Part shown: positions 48,424-58,115 of the stretch, piece by piece | How the letters are laid out: each line of letters opens with the position of its first letter | How positions within the stretch are numbered: position 1 is the first letter of the stretch | DNA from: a virus | IMG/VR virus record: IMGVR_UViG_3300025806_000029 | Coordinates: 1-58,115 of that record | Direction: 5' to 3' (one strand) | Length of the DNA: 58,115 bases | The notes under the pieces: model-generated | What the model was told of the DNA's origin: nothing | Databases searched by the model: none | What the model saw: the letters and a program-made list of their open reading frames with translations, nothing else | Position numbers and translations under genes: made by a program

Positions 48424-50877
48424 CTATCTCCTGTTATTACGTTGTTTAACAATTTCACGTTCCATAGCGGAATTTATACGAGCCGCAGTCTGCGACTCTT
48501 GGCTCTGAAGCCTTTGGTTAAACTGCTGGTTCCGCATCTCCATACCCGCCTGATCTAGGTCCAACTTGGCTTTGTCGATAGCCGCGTCGTTCTCTTCAGA
48601 CTGCGCCCGTATTTTAAGCTCCTGTTCTTTAAGCTGAACAAGCGGATCAGGGCCCTGACCCTCGTTAGAGACTTGCTGGCTAAGCTGCTTGAGCGCCTGC
48701 ATACCCTGCGCGATGATCTGAGCAGTTAGCGCCTCGACCTGTAGCATCTGCTCCTCCGACAAAGGCTGCCCCTGCTGGGCATTAACCTGTTGCAGGTATT
48801 GCACCATGGCCTGCTCAGATGCTTCAATCTTCACATGTTCCATGATGTGCTTTTGAAGAGTGACCGCAATAGTAGGGGCGGACGCGATCATGGGCGTCGA
48901 ACCAAATACCATGTGCGCCATGATGTGCGCTTGGTGGTCCTGACCCTCAAAAGCTTTCAGCGGCATCATGTCCAACGAGTTAATGTTTTCCTGCGCCGGG
49001 TCTATCGGCTTCTGCTCGTCTTCGGGAATACGTCGGAGAATCTTGTCCGTGTCCTTGACGCCCAAAGCGTCGTACATGTCCCGAAGAACCTCGTACATGT
49101 TGTGCATCTCGGGAGCGGCTTGAGCAAGCTGAAGCTTAGTCTGAGCCAGCGCGATACGCTGCGCCTGACTAAACACGTTCGGGTCTGAGACCGGAAGAAC
49201 GTCTACGCGCTCGTCAAAGTCCGCAGCCATAATGTTTACGTCTTCGCCCTCCACAGCATAGGGATAGCGCTGCGGTAAGTAATCCGACATGACACGAGCC
49301 AGTATCCTGAACTCCTGCCGCATGGCGTAGTGCAGCCTCTTATGGACTGCCGACATAACGCGAGAGCCTTGCTCCAGAAGCGCGATTGTCGTTCCAACGG
49401 CAGCCTGCTGGTTGCCGTCGCCAACCTTCATGTCTGTGGTGGTGGCGAACCGACGGCCCGCGTCAACGACAAACCCAAGAAGCTGGAACAAAGTTGTGTC
49501 CGGACCCTTAAAGGGTAGCGGCATAAGGCTGTCAGAAAGTCGGCCACCGGGCGCATCAACGTCACGAAACTCACCGGGCTGTAGTGGTTCGTCATCGTCC
49601 CTGATCCTCATACCGCGGGCCTTGAACCCAGCAGGGAGATTAGAGAGAGTGCCCGCATCGATAAGCTGGCGGAGCGCCGCGGTGGCCGTTCTTGACAGGC
49701 CACCTATGGTATGGATTAAACCAAGACCGTAGAAGCCAAATCCGGGAAGAAACTTGTAGTGAACGAAGTATTGTATCTTTTGACGGAGTTCGTCGTCCTC
49801 ACGGTAATTGCGTCGGATGGAGAGAATCTGACCGTTGTCTATGGAAATCGTGACGACATAGGGAACTTTAATTCCCGTGGCATCTCCATCTTCGTCAAGA
49901 TCCTCATAGCCTTCTAAATCAAGGTCAACGTGGCACTCTAACAAAGTGCAGTCGTAATCGTTGTTCGAGGGAGAAACCCCGTCAATGCGGTCTATCTCAT
50001 TCTGTACGCTGTTGTCTTCGGATTGTCCCGGTATCACGGGTATGTCTCGGTAGAACCCCGCGACCTGTAATTTACGAAGGTCGTTGAGCGAAGTCTTCAC
50101 AACCTGACTTATGTTCGGGCAGGTTTGCAGGTCTGAAGTGTCGTACGGAACAACAAGGTTTTCCGCAGGCACAAAACGACTTACCGCACGGCCCTGCATC
50201 TCGTCATAGTACACCTTCTTAAAGGTGGAGCCCGCCAGCGGCAGGTAGAACAGCATCTGATCCAGTTCCGGCGTGTACTCTTCCATCACGTTCGTGATGT
50301 AGTAATTCATAAACTGTTCGACTCGATGCGCCTGACGGGTCGTCTCCCCCGTCTCTCTGCCTATAACCGCGGACCGGACCGGACCGCGAGCCGGGAGAAG
50401 CTCGTTAAAAGCCTGCGCCTGAAACTGTGTAGCCGCCTCCGCCAAAAGCGGGTGCGTAACCCCGGTCGCGCCGCGAAACGGTTGCGTTCTTTCTTCGTAT
50501 GAAAATCCCAGAAGCTCCAAACCGTCAGCATAAGCATCTTCCCACTCCTGCCTGCTCGCTCGATTCCCCTCGTACTCGTCCAGTAACGACCCCGACAACG
50601 AACCTAGCTCCGAGTCGGACATGCCCTCAGCAAGGTTGCCGTAGAAATCGCCCACGTCCATCTCATCGTCTTGCGGGTCAAAATCTACAACAGTGTTTTC
50701 GCCCTCTTCGTAGATTTCAATGTCTTCGGGTATCTCTTCCGAAACCATTTCCATTACGTCGTTGTCCATCGAACCCGGAAGCTCGACTTCAATCTCAGCG
50801 GCGAGATCTTCTTCGTCTAATTGCGACGGGACACTGCTGTCCATAAGACCGGCCACGGGCCGCGGTTCTCTTGCCAT
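48424..50877 (-). CDS. Portal protein
   Basis: 817 aa, near P22 gp1 in size. Acidic N-terminal 90 residues, then the portal core: SRQEWEDAYADGLELLGF, PFRGATGVTHPLLAEAATQF, FMNYYITNVMEEYTPELDQM, FYLPLAGSTFKKVYYDEM, VSRFVPAENLVVPYDT and GFGFYGLGLIHTIGGLSRTA, with MKVGDGNQQAAVGTTIALLEQ wing residues. C-terminal helices (LKIRAQSEENDAAIDKAK, not contiguous) form the barrel. It makes the 12-fold ring for DNA entry and exit. Confidence 0.9.
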   Translation of the reverse strand: MAREPRPVAGLMDSSVPSQLDEEDLAAEIEVELPGSMDNDVMEMVSEEIPEDIEIYEEGENTVVDFDPQDDEMDVGDFYGNLAEGMSDSELGSLSGSLLDEYEGNRASRQEWEDAYADGLELLGFSYEERTQPFRGATGVTHPLLAEAATQFQAQAFNELLPARGPVRSAVIGRETGETTRQAHRVEQFMNYYITNVMEEYTPELDQMLFYLPLAGSTFKKVYYDEMQGRAVSRFVPAENLVVPYDTSDLQTCPNISQVVKTSLNDLRKLQVAGFYRDIPVIPGQSEDNSVQNEIDRIDGVSPSNNDYDCTLLECHVDLDLEGYEDLDEDGDATGIKVPYVVTISIDNGQILSIRRNYREDDELRQKIQYFVHYKFLPGFGFYGLGLIHTIGGLSRTATAALRQLIDAGTLSNLPAGFKARGMRIRDDDEPLQPGEFRDVDAPGGRLSDSLMPLPFKGPDTTLFQLLGFVVDAGRRFATTTDMKVGDGNQQAAVGTTIALLEQGSRVMSAVHKRLHYAMRQEFRILARVMSDYLPQRYPYAVEGEDVNIMAADFDERVDVLPVSDPNVFSQAQRIALAQTKLQLAQAAPEMHNMYEVLRDMYDALGVKDTDKILRRIPEDEQKPIDPAQENINSLDMMPLKAFEGQDHQAHIMAHMVFGSTPMIASAPTIAVTLQKHIMEHVKIEASEQAMVQYLQQVNAQQGQPLSEEQMLQVEALTAQIIAQGMQALKQLSQQVSNEGQGPDPLVQLKEQELKIRAQSEENDAAIDKAKLDLDQAGMEMRNQQFNQRLQSQESQTAARINSAMEREIVKQRNNRR

Positions 50878-53318: not shown

Positions 53319-54053
53319 TTAACCCTGCGACATTACGGACTGCATAAATACGCCAAGTCCGTTTGACGGAGAGGAAATCTCGTTCGCAGGTCCGCGGGCC
53401 ATGATCCGGTTTACCTGCTCTACGACCTTCGGGTCAGCACTCTGCATCAGCGACGCAAAGTCGCCGGGTACGCCCGCCTGCTTCAAGAGCCGTGATCCGA
53501 GGGCCGCGGACCGCGGGTCTACGTACGGGACGACTTTGCTGATTGTTACGCTTTTCTCTATGCCCATAGGCTGTTCAACCTCTCCGCCGTCTTCAAAAGG
53601 AATGGTGTAGCTTACGCGTCCGCCGTACTCGTCAGGCATATCAGAGCCTTCAGGCATGTCACGGTAATACCCCTCGAACCGAGGGCCGTCTTTCATCTGG
53701 TAGTAGCCGCTGTACTCCGGCGACTGAATGCCGCGAGCGGAATAAGTTTCACGGTCCGGGGCTCCATAGCGCTGAAGCTCTTCCGGGAAATCAACGCTGC
53801 CGCGGTAATAGCTGCCTGAAGCCGCGCCACCAAAAGTATCGCCTCCGGGAGACGTTACATCGACGCCAATCTTCCCGTAGTAGTTTTGATTGCTGATGTC
53901 CAAAAGAACGTCGCCTTCAGGCAAATCGACGGATGGGGTGCGACCCGTTTGTCGGCCTTCCACAAAAACGCGCGGGCGGACGCCGTACCCGGCAATTCCA
54001 AAGCTGTATCCCTCCGGGGCCCCTGCGCCTAAATCAACTTTCGAATCCGCCAT
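53319..54053 (-). CDS. Hypothetical protein behind terminase
   Basis: 244 aa. Gly/Tyr-rich beta protein with repeated short strands (FGIAGYGVRPRVFVEGR, GSYYRGSVDFPEELQRYG) and GYYQMKDGPRFEGYYRDMPEG, then a helical C-terminus with a conserved-looking end (GPANEISSPSNGLGVFMQS). May bind carbohydrate or form a virion lattice. No family recognised. Eleven bases from the terminase stop. Confidence 0.6.
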   Translation of the reverse strand: MADSKVDLGAGAPEGYSFGIAGYGVRPRVFVEGRQTGRTPSVDLPEGDVLLDISNQNYYGKIGVDVTSPGGDTFGGAASGSYYRGSVDFPEELQRYGAPDRETYSARGIQSPEYSGYYQMKDGPRFEGYYRDMPEGSDMPDEYGGRVSYTIPFEDGGEVEQPMGIEKSVTISKVVPYVDPRSAALGSRLLKQAGVPGDFASLMQSADPKVVEQVNRIMARGPANEISSPSNGLGVFMQSVMSQG

Positions 54054-54064
54054 GCCGTCCTGTC

Positions 54065-55525
54065 TCAGTAATACGCGTGGACACGTTGACTGGTTTCAGT
54101 GTCTTCCCAGTCGTCCGACGGCAACTGAATAAAGTTGCCCTGACGGTAACGCATCAACGCCTGTGTCATGCTATCTACCAAGTCATCATATTCCCCGTTA
54201 GGAAAAGCTGCAACTTCTTCTATCATCTCGTCCGCGAACACCTCGTCGGGGGCCCAGACCATTCCAGCCTCGAAAAGCGGCGACACAGAATGCACCCGCG
54301 TGACTTTGTCCGCCCCCTTCGACGGCGTGTAGTTCACAACAGGAATGCCAATCTGTCGTAATTCCTGCGTCAACGGCATACCGCTCGCCTTCGCCTCGAC
54401 AATTACCGTATCCGGCTCCCAGTAGCCGTACTGGTCGTACGCCTGCTCCTTCAGTTCAGGAAAATCCCACCGGCCCTTCTTACTGTCCAGCAGGATAAGG
54501 TTCGGGGGGCCCCCTTCCTGCGGATAAAACACACCCCACGTCGTTATCGCGCTAAAGTCCGCAGTCTCCCGCTTACTGAACGCCGTGTCATAACTCTGGA
54601 TGACGTACTGCAACTGCGGGACAACTTCTTTCTCCCACTTCTTCCACCACTCACGCGGGATAATCGCGTTCTCTTCGCCCGTCGGGTTCTGCTGATACTG
54701 AGCGTTCCACTTGGACGGTGGAATAGAAGCCTTGACCGCGGTCAGATCCTCAAGAGACCAGTATTGAGGCCAGCACGGCTCGTCATTATCAAATATCGCA
54801 GGTAGCTCCACAACTTCCCACTGATCTGCTAGCGGATCTTTAGCCATAGAACGAAGTAACTGACCCGTCATATCCTTCTCAGACCACCGGGTCTGAACCA
54901 AAACTATCGACCCACCCGGCTGGAGCCTCTGTCGGGGGCCCCCGGTGTACCATTCCCACGCATCGTCAAAACCACTGTTCGACATCGCCGTCTGTTCCGA
55001 GTGCGGGTCATCAATGACCACCAAATCACCACCGCGACCCGCCAAGTTCGAGCCAACGCCCACGGCGTAGTACATACCGCCCTTGTTCGTGTCCCAGCGA
55101 CCCGACGCTTTACTGTCAACAGCAAGCGCAACCTCGGGAAACACCTCCTTGTATTCGTCCGTCTCAATGAGGTTCTTGACCTTTCGACCGAAGTTCACCG
55201 CAAGCTCGGTCGTATGCGTCGCTTGAATGATCTTCATCCGCGGATCACGGCCCATCATCCACGCAGGGAACAAATAACTCGCGAACTCCGACTTCGTATG
55301 ACGAGGGGCCATGTTAATTATTAAGCGCTTTAACTCGCCCGTCGCCACACGTTCAAACTTATCTGCAATAATCTTGTGATGCCGACCCGCAATGAAGTCG
55401 GGCCACATCGCACGGACAAAAGTTAAAAAATCGTTTTGGCATTTTTCGTTTTTCTCAAGCTGCGCTAACCGCAGTTCAAGTTTCAGTCGTTTTGATTCTG
55501 CTTCGGGCGTCATTGCGTTAGACAT
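54065..55525 (-). CDS. terL: Terminase large subunit
   Basis: 486 aa. ATPase: Walker A-type APRHTKS at 73-79, Walker B LVVIDD at 168-173, ATP-coupling TRWSEKD. Nuclease: SYDTAFSKRETADFSA (first Asp), TVIVEAKASG (second acidic) and YDDLVDSMTQAL (third). All motor and RNase H-like nuclease residues are visible. Packs DNA into the prohead with the portal. The start ATG lies just past a GGGGCCCC palindrome and a parS site. The C-terminus is complete. Confidence 0.95.
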   Translation of the reverse strand: MSNAMTPEAESKRLKLELRLAQLEKNEKCQNDFLTFVRAMWPDFIAGRHHKIIADKFERVATGELKRLIINMAPRHTKSEFASYLFPAWMMGRDPRMKIIQATHTTELAVNFGRKVKNLIETDEYKEVFPEVALAVDSKASGRWDTNKGGMYYAVGVGSNLAGRGGDLVVIDDPHSEQTAMSNSGFDDAWEWYTGGPRQRLQPGGSIVLVQTRWSEKDMTGQLLRSMAKDPLADQWEVVELPAIFDNDEPCWPQYWSLEDLTAVKASIPPSKWNAQYQQNPTGEENAIIPREWWKKWEKEVVPQLQYVIQSYDTAFSKRETADFSAITTWGVFYPQEGGPPNLILLDSKKGRWDFPELKEQAYDQYGYWEPDTVIVEAKASGMPLTQELRQIGIPVVNYTPSKGADKVTRVHSVSPLFEAGMVWAPDEVFADEMIEEVAAFPNGEYDDLVDSMTQALMRYRQGNFIQLPSDDWEDTETSQRVHAYY

Positions 55526-55529
55526 CCTA

Positions 55530-55541
55530 TAGGGGCCCCTA
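55530..55541. promoter_or_regulatory. TAGGGGCCCCTA palindrome
   Basis: A perfect 12-bp palindrome between parS and the terminase start. Could be an operator for terL or part of a partition/packaging site. Confidence 0.45.
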
Positions 55542-55544
55542 GAA

Positions 55545-55562
55545 ATGTTTCACGTGAAACAT
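55545..55562. promoter_or_regulatory. Canonical parS-like palindrome ATGTTTCACGTGAAACAT
   Basis: 18-bp perfect palindrome whose inner 16 bases (55546-55561) equal the bacterial chromosomal parS consensus TGTTTCACGTGAAACA, bound by ParB. No parA or parB gene is visible in the window. A TATGGGA element overlaps its right edge (55561-55568). Confidence 0.85.
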
Positions 55563-55589
55563 ATGGGACGGTTCTTATCTTATCAAGTC

Positions 55590-55618
55590 ATATCAAAATA
55601 TCACGTATTCTATGTCAA
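55590..55618 (-). promoter_or_regulatory. Promoter upstream of large terminase
   Basis: Leftward consensus TTGACA (55613-55618), 17 bases, TGATAT (55590-55595, weak -10). The transcript would run through parS before terL, so ParB binding could repress the late operon. Confidence 0.5.
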
Positions 55619-56017
55619 AAACATGGTCTTACACCCGTGTCCCCCGGTCGCGCCGGTCGCGGGCGGCGGCGGGCCGGGCCGGGTGCCGTGATCCATGGAA
55701 ATTGACCCGATATCCCGGGGCCCCGGGGCGCTTTTTGCGGCGCTCTATCTCGCACCTGCGAACGGCCCGGACCCCGCGGAAATATGGGATTTATCGGTTC
55801 CCAGGATACCGCGCCGCACAACGGCCCGCGTTCGGCGGTGCAATATGCGTGAAATCCCGTCCGGGCTGGGCGGCGCGGCGGGCGTCACCAGTGAGCGGCG
55901 GATTCGGGGCGGGGTCCGGGGTCCGGGGCGGACAGATCGCGGCCCGCGGGCCGCGGTAGACGGTGCGCGGTACGTTTCAGGCAGGGCGCGGGCGGCGGGC
56001 CGGGGCAAGGTTAACGC
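55619..56017. other. Gene-free, GC-rich segment with large palindromes
   Basis: About 400 bases with no credible gene; open frames on both strands are the kind made by high GC. It contains CCCGGGGCCCCGGG (55714-55727) and GCGGCCCGCGGGCCGC (55939-55954), both perfect palindromes, a GGGGTCC tandem near 55911, and TATGGGATTTATC near 55784. Much more GC-rich than the coding DNA around it. Candidate packaging (pac/cos), origin or partition region. Confidence 0.65.
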
Positions 56018-56048
56018 ACAAAAAAAACCCCGGGGCGGAACCCCGGGG
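56018..56048 (-). terminator. Rho-independent terminator
   Basis: CCCCGGGG (56028-56035) and CCCCGGGG (56041-56048) pair around CGGAA and are followed leftward by a T run of about nine. It ends the small operon whose last gene stops at 56072 and shields the GC-rich segment. Confidence 0.85.
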
Positions 56049-56071
56049 CGTCGTGTGCGGATCGGATCTGA

Positions 56072-56263
56072 TCAGCTATGCGTGTACCCGTCGGACTCGA
56101 TACCCAGCCATATCCCGCACCACTGAACCATGATGCAATCGTCACACGGCAGGCGCTGGGCGGTGCGCCGCCATGCCAGATAGGACGGCTTAGGGTATTT
56201 GTACCAATCCCGATGGTAGACGCTGAGCAGGGCGACGCGCTGGGCTCTCGTGAGCGGGCGCAC
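56072..56263 (-). CDS. Small conserved-looking phage protein
   Basis: 63 aa from a GTG at 56263 with GGGAGAG upstream, overlapping the previous stop as TAGTG. RPLTRAQRVALLSVYHRDW, then YLAWRRTAQRL, CDDCIMVQWCGIWLGIESDG and YTHS: this short pattern with the final DGYTHS occurs in phages of alphaproteobacteria. A CxxC plus WC may bind metal. Function unknown. Confidence 0.65.
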   Translation of the reverse strand: MRPLTRAQRVALLSVYHRDWYKYPKPSYLAWRRTAQRLPCDDCIMVQWCGIWLGIESDGYTHS

Positions 56264-56352
56264 TAGCAATCTCTCCCGAGCTCTGCCGCGACCCAAGCGA
56301 TGACAAGCGCGCCGCCGCCCGACAACGCCAGTATCACCCATTCGCCGAACAT
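56263..56352 (-). CDS. 29-aa membrane micropeptide
   Basis: Reads MFGEWVILALSGGGALVIAW, then VAAELGRDC. One membrane helix. ATG at 56352 overlaps the upstream TGA (TGATG) and its stop overlaps the next GTG (TAGTG), so it is locked between two genes. Holin-like or regulatory micropeptide. Confidence 0.5.
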   Translation of the reverse strand: MFGEWVILALSGGGALVIAWVAAELGRDC

Positions 56353-56840
56353 CAAATCAGGTCCACCGTAACGACCAGATCGTCACGGATCACTGACCGG
56401 GCGCTTTCGGCGGCGGCATCGGCAACGCGGTCTTCGATCTCCGCCCAGATCGCGTTGCCGTCGATTTCCCCGGCGGCTTCCGATGCGGCTTCCTCGGCGG
56501 TGTCGCGGACGCGGTACTCGATTTCGGCCCATATCGCGTCGCCGTCGATTTCTGAGTCGGAGAACGCGACACTCTCGGCGACGCGCAGGGCGACACGCTC
56601 GGCGATGCCCGATATTAGCGCGACCAGTTCGGTGCCCGGGCTATTCGCGAGGTCGGCAAGTGCCCTGCGGGCAGAATCCCGCTCGTCGGTGATCTGGGCA
56701 AGGTGCGCCTCAATTTCCGCGACGGTGCCGGTGCCGAATCCGGCGATGGTAAACTCTGCCCGGCCCGCCTTGTCGGATTCCAGTTCGGTTGTCACGGTCC
56801 GGAGCAGGTCGGTGGTGCTGGTGTCATGTTCGTCTTGCAT
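56352..56840 (-). CDS. Acidic repeat protein
   Basis: 162 aa from the ATG at 56840 (MQDEHDTSTTD) with GGAGAA upstream. A 33-residue motif EIDGNAIWAEIEDRV is repeated twice (the other copy EIDGDAIWAEIEYRV), joined by Ala/Glu helices. Strongly acidic. It could be a DNA mimic or a coiled-coil decoy; no family recognised. Behind the DUF932 terminator. Confidence 0.6.
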   Translation of the reverse strand: MQDEHDTSTTDLLRTVTTELESDKAGRAEFTIAGFGTGTVAEIEAHLAQITDERDSARRALADLANSPGTELVALISGIAERVALRVAESVAFSDSEIDGDAIWAEIEYRVRDTAEEAASEAAGEIDGNAIWAEIEDRVADAAAESARSVIRDDLVVTVDLI

Positions 56841-56961: not shown

Positions 56962-58089
56962 TTACGCGGTCATCAATTCCAGCGCGGCTTTATGTGCGCG
57001 GGATTTCAGCGCGCCGCCCGTGCCATCGCCGAACAGATTAGACGCGACGTTGTGCGCGGTGCCGCGATTTTTCACGGGCCGCTGGTCTGCCAGCCATGTC
57101 ACGGTGTTGAGTGCGCCCCAAACGGTGCCGCGCGTTGTCGCCAGATCGTGCCCGGGGTTGATACCATCGGCGGGCGGGGCCGTGATATCTTCCGGCAGTC
57201 CGGCGGCGACGTTGCGGGCGATAGCATCAAGGCGGGCCGAGACATACCGCGCCGCCTCGCTTTCATCCTCTTTGCCTATCGCCACAAAGTCTTGGCCGGT
57301 GTAGTAGGCGAAGGCCTTTCGGACCCCTTCGGAATGGATCACGCGCCCACCGTCCGTGGTTTTTTCCGTGCCGCGCATAACCGCCCGGAAATATTCCAGC
57401 GCCTCGCCATCGGTCAAAGCGCGGGCGGCCATGGCTTTAGCCGAACTAACAAAAGACCCGAAGGATTCCGCGTTTAAACCCAGCGCGGTTTCGACGGCTT
57501 CGGGGTCCAGTGCTACGCGGTGGTCGTGCCGGAATATGTCGGCCTCTTTCTCGGAAAGCGCCTTAGCTAGGGTGTTCCGGCAAACGACGCGCTCCATCAC
57601 GCGGGCGAATGTGTTAGCGTCGCGGCCAGTGTGCCGGACAACAAAAAGCGGGCGCGAGGCTATCGCATCGCCGGGGCCTACTTCCTCCATATGGCCGGTT
57701 TCTAGTTGAACCCAAGAGGATTCGCCGCCGAACAACGCTCCCGCCGTTATAATGTCGTGCCCATGTTTGGCGCGGATATCATCGGCGACTTCAAGGATGG
57801 CGCGATTCTGTACCGGTTGCCATTGCCCGGCGATGTAAGGGCCGGTCACGTGGTTGTTGTCGGTCCGCTCTATATAAAACGAATCCGGAATTGCGGTGCC
57901 GTCGGTGCGGTGGTTCGGTCGGCACTCGACGGTGTAGTTTAAACCGGCGGCGTCGGCCCATGTGTCGATTGATGCGCCCGCCTCTACTATCTGCGGGGAG
58001 GTCTCGGCGGCGTGCCATGGGGCGGCGTCGCCCGCCCGATATGCCATTGCGATTGTGCCGTCTGCTTGTGTTGCTAATTCGTGGGACAT
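56962..58089 (-). CDS. DUF932 family phage/plasmid-like protein (complete, allele B)
   Basis: 375 aa, the family's usual length. Conserved blocks: WHAAETSPQIVEAGAS and AGLNYTVECRP at the N-terminus, IPDSFYIERTDNN, GALFGGESSWVQLETG, PLFVVRHTGRDANTFARV, RVVCRNTL, and the C-terminal TRGTVWGALNTVTWLADQ with HNVASNLFGDG. Members lie on phages and plasmids, often in the early region; reported roles are unproven. Alone between two terminators, so probably separately regulated. The upstream TGTTCTCGCAT box is seen in the other copy (base 823) because the window ends at the promoter. Confidence 0.9.
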   Translation of the reverse strand: MSHELATQADGTIAMAYRAGDAAPWHAAETSPQIVEAGASIDTWADAAGLNYTVECRPNHRTDGTAIPDSFYIERTDNNHVTGPYIAGQWQPVQNRAILEVADDIRAKHGHDIITAGALFGGESSWVQLETGHMEEVGPGDAIASRPLFVVRHTGRDANTFARVMERVVCRNTLAKALSEKEADIFRHDHRVALDPEAVETALGLNAESFGSFVSSAKAMAARALTDGEALEYFRAVMRGTEKTTDGGRVIHSEGVRKAFAYYTGQDFVAIGKEDESEAARYVSARLDAIARNVAAGLPEDITAPPADGINPGHDLATTRGTVWGALNTVTWLADQRPVKNRGTAHNVASNLFGDGTGGALKSRAHKAALELMTA

Positions 58090-58115
58090 TGGTCTAGTTC
58101 TCCATGATAAAAAAA
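57328..58115. repeat. Right terminal copy of the diverged 788-bp overlap
   Basis: Aligns base for base with 1-788: identical over the first 99 and last 127 bases, diverged in between without net length change. Equivalent positions differ by 57,327, the inferred genome length. Confidence 0.85.

Follow-up and report, generated by a model that had tools for sequence, protein, structure and literature searches.

The parS site of chromosomal ParABS systems, as in Caulobacter, Bacillus and Pseudomonas, has the same 16-bp sequence as the phage site described here, which differs in lying on a phage genome, in a single copy, in a gene leader and with no adjacent parA or parB. Elements that lack ParB and use the ParB of another replicon are already known. 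The parS mimics of SGI1 hijack the parABS system of IncC plasmids, for stability and for plasmid eviction (PMC10954446). Like SGI1, our phage is a mobile element with parS and without its own ParAB that, judging from its sequence, would use the ParB of another replicon; the system exploited by SGI1 belongs to a plasmid, whereas here a chromosomal-type site sits on a tailed phage by a putative late promoter. The DNA of phage phi29 reportedly uses host Spo0J (ParB) for entry into the spore, which would likewise be a phage without ParB using host ParB and parS, but that role concerns spores, the sites lie elsewhere in an 18-kb genome, and no late-operon leader arrangement was seen there.

Regulation by ParB and partition by phages have each been described. 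In P. aeruginosa, chromosomal ParB represses the promoters next to parS3 and parS4, a result obtained with lacZ fusions and with mutated parS (PMC5521831); our locus resembles these in having a promoter with a nearby parS, but the genes there are host genes and the phage terL promoter is putative. KorB, a ParB-family clamp, is described in PMC11790492 as exerting long-range silencing on RK2. Among extrachromosomal prophages with ParABS, RedRock encodes ParA and ParB, and its parS loci are repeats of an 8-bp motif (PMC7157519); RedRock and its like share phage-borne parS sites with our phage, which has neither ParA/ParB nor 8-bp-repeat parS loci. In the literature searched, mostly open-access papers, host-type parS was not reported from phages, and the late-operon-leader arrangement, with its repeated relocation and its breadth among phages, appears to be new.

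We analysed a virus record of 58,115 nucleotides, referred to as the window (IMGVR_UViG_3300025806_000029). The 18-mer ATGTTTCACGTGAAACAT at 55545-55562 contains the exact 16-bp consensus palindrome that defines chromosomal-type parS, and it forms the core of the 20-bp duplex GATGTTTCACGTGAAACATC that was co-crystallised with ParB (PMC7383237). The first-pass annotation had called an exact consensus parS here, and both this site, at 55546-55561, and the layout it described, with TTGACA at 55613, parS, the GGGGCCCC palindrome and terL in that neighbourhood, were confirmed (Table 1). A second copy was absent from the window even when up to 3 mismatches were allowed, a tolerance at which shuffled sequence gave a mean of 0.19 matches. 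Because terL runs from 54065 to 55525 on the minus strand, parS lies 20 bp upstream of its ATG.

Table 1. Coordinates of parS and the features around it in the window
Feature	Position	Strand	Basis or remark
parS, TGTTTCACGTGAAACA, perfect palindrome, 16-bp consensus	55546..55561	.	core of 18-mer 55545-55562
terL (terminase large subunit), first gene after parS	54065..55525	-	62.7% to phage 023Pt_psg01, 62.3% to HTVC027P; Pfam Terminase_6C
-35-like hexamer TTGACA, inferred terL (late) promoter	55613..55618	-	sequence; homologous hexamer in relatives
-10-like hexamer TGATAT	55590..55595	-	17 bp from -35-like hexamer; promoter function inferred
GGGGCCCC beside terL start	55532..55539	.	found in parS+ and parS- relatives
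Portal protein, same strand, farther along inferred late operon	48424..50877	-	phrog_1216, 4.5e-57

Conservation in relatives suggests that the TTGACA and TGATAT hexamers form the terL promoter. The counterpart of TTGACA in relatives reads TTGACA, TTCACA or CTCACA, and the -10-like hexamer was TGATAT in 32 and TGAAAT in 15 of 64 anchored leaders. A generic promoter scan did not list the pair in the terL leader because TGATAT fails the hexamer rule of the scan. In some clades another promoter, closer to parS, may be in use. The GGGGCCCC palindrome was considered as a component of the parS unit and dropped, because it is equally frequent in relatives with and without parS. The window has just 5 copies of it, all within 54016-55724, and the one preceding the terL ATG is retained in both groups of relatives; it is possibly a ribosome-binding or packaging element, with AGGGG as a plausible site for the ribosome. 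The region 55640-56050, upstream of the terL promoter, is G+C-rich, has no obvious gene and is closed by a strong terminator-like hairpin (56049-56027, minus strand), and an Rfam scan of 55400-56400 returned only sub-threshold matches, at the hairpin 56020-56083.

Conservation of the site was assessed in 80 IMG/VR loci selected by TerL peptides without reference to parS, of which 79 leaders, the window counted in, were long enough to read. The TerL family is one of viruses of aquatic bacteria. The results showed that parS was present in the terL leader in 54 of the 79 (53/78 without the window) and absent from 25, and that it was confined to this leader in 54/54 positive cases of the family, about 28-133 bp upstream of terL. 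When leaders were aligned on parS and dereplicated to 14 (flanks <75% identical), the mean frequency of the commonest base was 0.97 across parS versus 0.50 on both flanks. The only positions varying within parS in these 14 leaders were 5 and 12, which changed jointly to TGTTCCACGTGGAACA, the Pseudomonas-type parS with C-G instead of T-A at this palindromic pair. Positions 5 and 12 are the known ambiguity of parS sites, and the variation is thus confined to where chromosomal-type sites are known to vary. Some leaders carried both forms, 23-25 bp apart and in either order (L025, L076), and three had single-base departures at an end or on one side of the 5/12 pair (L032, L046, L060). Retention of the site in close relatives, the check that the first-pass annotation had set for its own proposal, was thus borne out by 54 of 79 leaders with diverged flanks.

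The pattern on the TerL tree required 5 changes of parS state, of which well-supported branches force 3, in a parsimony count that does not distinguish gains from losses. None of 500 label shuffles gave a count as low as 5 (mean 23.6), in a comparison where near-copies alone already make labels cluster. The 25 leaders lacking parS, which include a whole clade, still have an intact terL and promoter-like backbone, and cultured SAR11 relatives have no parS near terL, indicating that in some hosts or lifestyles the phages can do without parS. The mean G+C of terL was 0.46 in relatives lacking parS versus 0.51 in carriers, and this lower value may reflect different hosts.

Leaders with and without parS share one backbone, (G)GCCATGTTT-YTSACA-AAYAAT...TTTGATATGA... 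then AGGGGCCCC-ATG. In all 42 anchored leaders with parS, the site started downstream of the -10-like hexamer, at offsets of 2-3, 28, 38-40, 46, 51 or 74-76 bp, the window having 28 bp. At an offset of 2 or 3 bp, parS would overlap the expected transcription start. The existence of several insertion places in one conserved backbone indicates that parS has moved or been regained within the leader. Taken together, these results make it very likely that the palindrome is a selected site for host ParB, and a genuine chromosomal-type parS kept in the untranslated leader of the packaging and late operon would be their best explanation.

We then consider which ParB could read this site. The ParB_N domain was not found in the window or in 16 further phage records, 13 of them carrying parS, in a search that gave positives in control genomes. 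ParA and ParB were also not among the matches listed in PHROGs scans of 30 window proteins, nor among those listed (25 of 42 families) in a Pfam scan of 57 window ORFs. The earlier statement that parA and parB are missing is thus supported, and a ParB encoded by the phage, as part of a ParABS system with its own parA and parB, was rejected as the reader of parS on the basis of the 17 records searched for ParB_N. Together with the identity of the site to chromosomal parS, this points to host ParB as the reader, and the TerL family almost certainly borrows it. In having a parS under selection and no ParAB of its own, the phage belongs with elements that hijack the ParABS of another replicon. The description of the site as host-type was supported by chromosomes, with exact parS in 86 of 115 sampled genomes from the class of MAG G001 (titled Rhodospirillales) and a tabulated count of 0 for the reversed control. 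TerL matches in genome assemblies were only two, in MAGs filed as Verrucomicrobiota and Rhodospirillales, which belong to different phyla, and the window has no tRNA genes; an alphaproteobacterial host, as implied by the first-pass annotation, is therefore no more than a candidate.

The site is also widespread beyond this family. When 50,697 annotated phage records were searched by BLAST with N-padded 16-mers, exact TGTTTCACGTGAAACA was found in 286 and TGTTCCACGTGGAACA in 58, 17 of the latter being Pseudomonas phages, with many near-copies included in these record counts. Hosts of phages with TGTTTCACGTGAAACA included Listeria, Microbacterium, Arthrobacter, Gordonia, Bacillus, Lactobacillus, Ruegeria, Vibrio and Butyrivibrio, among others. 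Two control palindromes matched to TGTTTCACGTGAAACA in composition, one of which keeps the CACGTG core, occurred in 0 of the 50,697 records; in IMG/VR, each parS form was found at least 120 times versus 11 and 2 for the controls. These results indicate that carrying host-type parS while lacking ParB recurs among phages of many hosts, and that the variant carried matches the host in Pseudomonas phages. Intergenic location was dropped as evidence: parS was intergenic at 33 of 98 IMG/VR loci versus 6.7% of random positions, but the control palindromes were intergenic in 10 of 12, and intergenic position alone is therefore not evidence. The two small 'bajarodino' virus records PQ006099.1 and PQ006149.1 (H177, H178), each about 5.9 kb long, had 5 and 6 exact parS, and several Microviridae had one each. 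Klebsiella jumbo phages, including RaK2 and K64-1 (H185, H186), have TGTTCCACGTGGAACA inside coding sequence. To our knowledge, ParABS is generally missing from enteric hosts, and this occurrence is therefore probably due to chance.

For the main role of parS in the terL leader, we favour a late promoter gated by ParB and opened when phage replication titrates ParB, to which we give a probability of roughly 0.45. According to this proposal, parS would recruit host ParB, whose dimers, loaded there as CTP clamps, would cover the leader and the terL promoter and keep late transcription low. Phage DNA replication would then spread a limited host pool of ParB over many parS copies, and as occupancy per phage genome dropped, terL and the downstream late genes would open, so that parS and ParB could act as a brake on packaging that senses copy number. 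The first-pass annotation had raised silencing of the late genes, segregation with the chromosome and titration of ParB as possible roles; that parS follows a conserved promoter-like element speaks for a local action on late transcription, and binding, repression and titration at the phage parS are all inferred from sequence. Against the gate, parS is dispensable in part of the family, its spacing to the inferred promoter varies widely, and its positions in distant and unrelated phages agree no less well with a role over a region or the whole genome. The restriction of parS to the terL leader in the TerL family favours the gate, while scattered positions elsewhere favour partition or titration as the general role. 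Extending the gate to many lytic phages is more tentative still: in these, a parS operator in a late leader might make host ParB a titratable repressor, with packaging starting once genome copies exceed the ParB supply. If such a gate operates, parS may provide a compact, testable case in which a chromosome-segregation clamp regulates a virus, linking ParB biology (CTP clamps, spreading, silencing and SMC loading) to the timing of infection, and cultured phages with known hosts that carry parS can be used for testing.

The position of parS in other phages bears on a role in replicon positioning, in which host ParB and ParA would tether the phage genome to the chromosome origins or segregate it with them; like a plasmid centromere, the site would then keep the phage genome in both daughters during a slow or stalled infection. 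We consider both versions somewhat unlikely for the TerL family, although a parS exploiting the ParABS of another replicon is established for SGI1 on IncC plasmids (PMC10954446). The varied positions of the site suit such a position-independent role. In distant relatives, parS lay at -1040 (L131), -804 (L134), -1499 (L100) and -1809/+1996 (L141) relative to terL, and unrelated phages often have it at a distance from any late promoter. Where looked at in detail, parS occupies short gaps beside genes. It precedes the prohead protease in Butyrivibrio phage Bo-Finn and a major structural gene in Pseudomonas KPP25, lies in gaps between genes in DSS3P8, PatrickStar, Lana and vB_BcoS-136, and in Vibrio phage phi 3 is found in the left terminal repeat, between pre-early genes A1 and A2 (KP280063.1 position 2934; L343:2501-2516). 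Exact parS in the phi29-like phages B103, Goe1, BSP11 and Chedec 11, beside a packaging gene in the last, also agrees with partition. On the other side, partition does not require the terL-leader location found in every positive member of the TerL family, and the recognised window genes look lytic (polymerase, primase, helicases and structural genes), with no integrase or Rep among the PHROGs and Pfam matches listed for window proteins.

Alternatively, phage parS copies might draw ParB and SMC off the host origin, which would disrupt host chromosome segregation, or load SMC that compacts phage DNA for packaging. Exact sites in host chromosomes are few, most genomes sampled from the class of G001 having 1-4, and tens of phage copies would therefore outnumber them; 3-5 exact parS are clustered a few kb from terL in three phages with very divergent TerL (L103, L130 and L139, about 28% identity). 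However, copies per record were exactly one in 7 TerL-family records with parS and one to three in more distant phages, and the single copy in the family, together with a terL-leader position left unexplained, makes this reading improbable.

The palindrome might instead act as an RNA hairpin in the terL leader or bind a different protein. It folds as a 7-bp hairpin, and the paired change at 5/12 preserves pairing, but the loop and the CACGTG core are invariant, with covariation only at 5/12, unlike a free stem; this disfavours the hairpin. The recurrence of the 16-mer in unrelated phages of many hosts, where palindromes of the same composition do not recur, also argues against these readings, and we regard both as very unlikely. 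Chance, which the first-pass annotation had already judged very unlikely, is rejected as a negligible possibility: a large phage collection will contain some random 16-mer matches, the Klebsiella sites probably among them, but parS is conserved across diverged leaders, was repeatedly gained or lost on the TerL tree, and far outnumbers the control palindromes.

Other features of the window were also recorded. Its ends, 1-788 and 57328-58115, match in direct orientation at 86% identity over about 790 bp and hold two paralogous phrog_1221 genes; given this direct repeat, the record probably represents an almost complete genome that was broken at a repeat. Pfam matches among the 57 ORFs included an HlyC-type acyltransferase, a Cpn10 co-chaperonin, several 2OG-Fe(II) oxygenases and proteins like gp33 and gp34 of phage Pam3.
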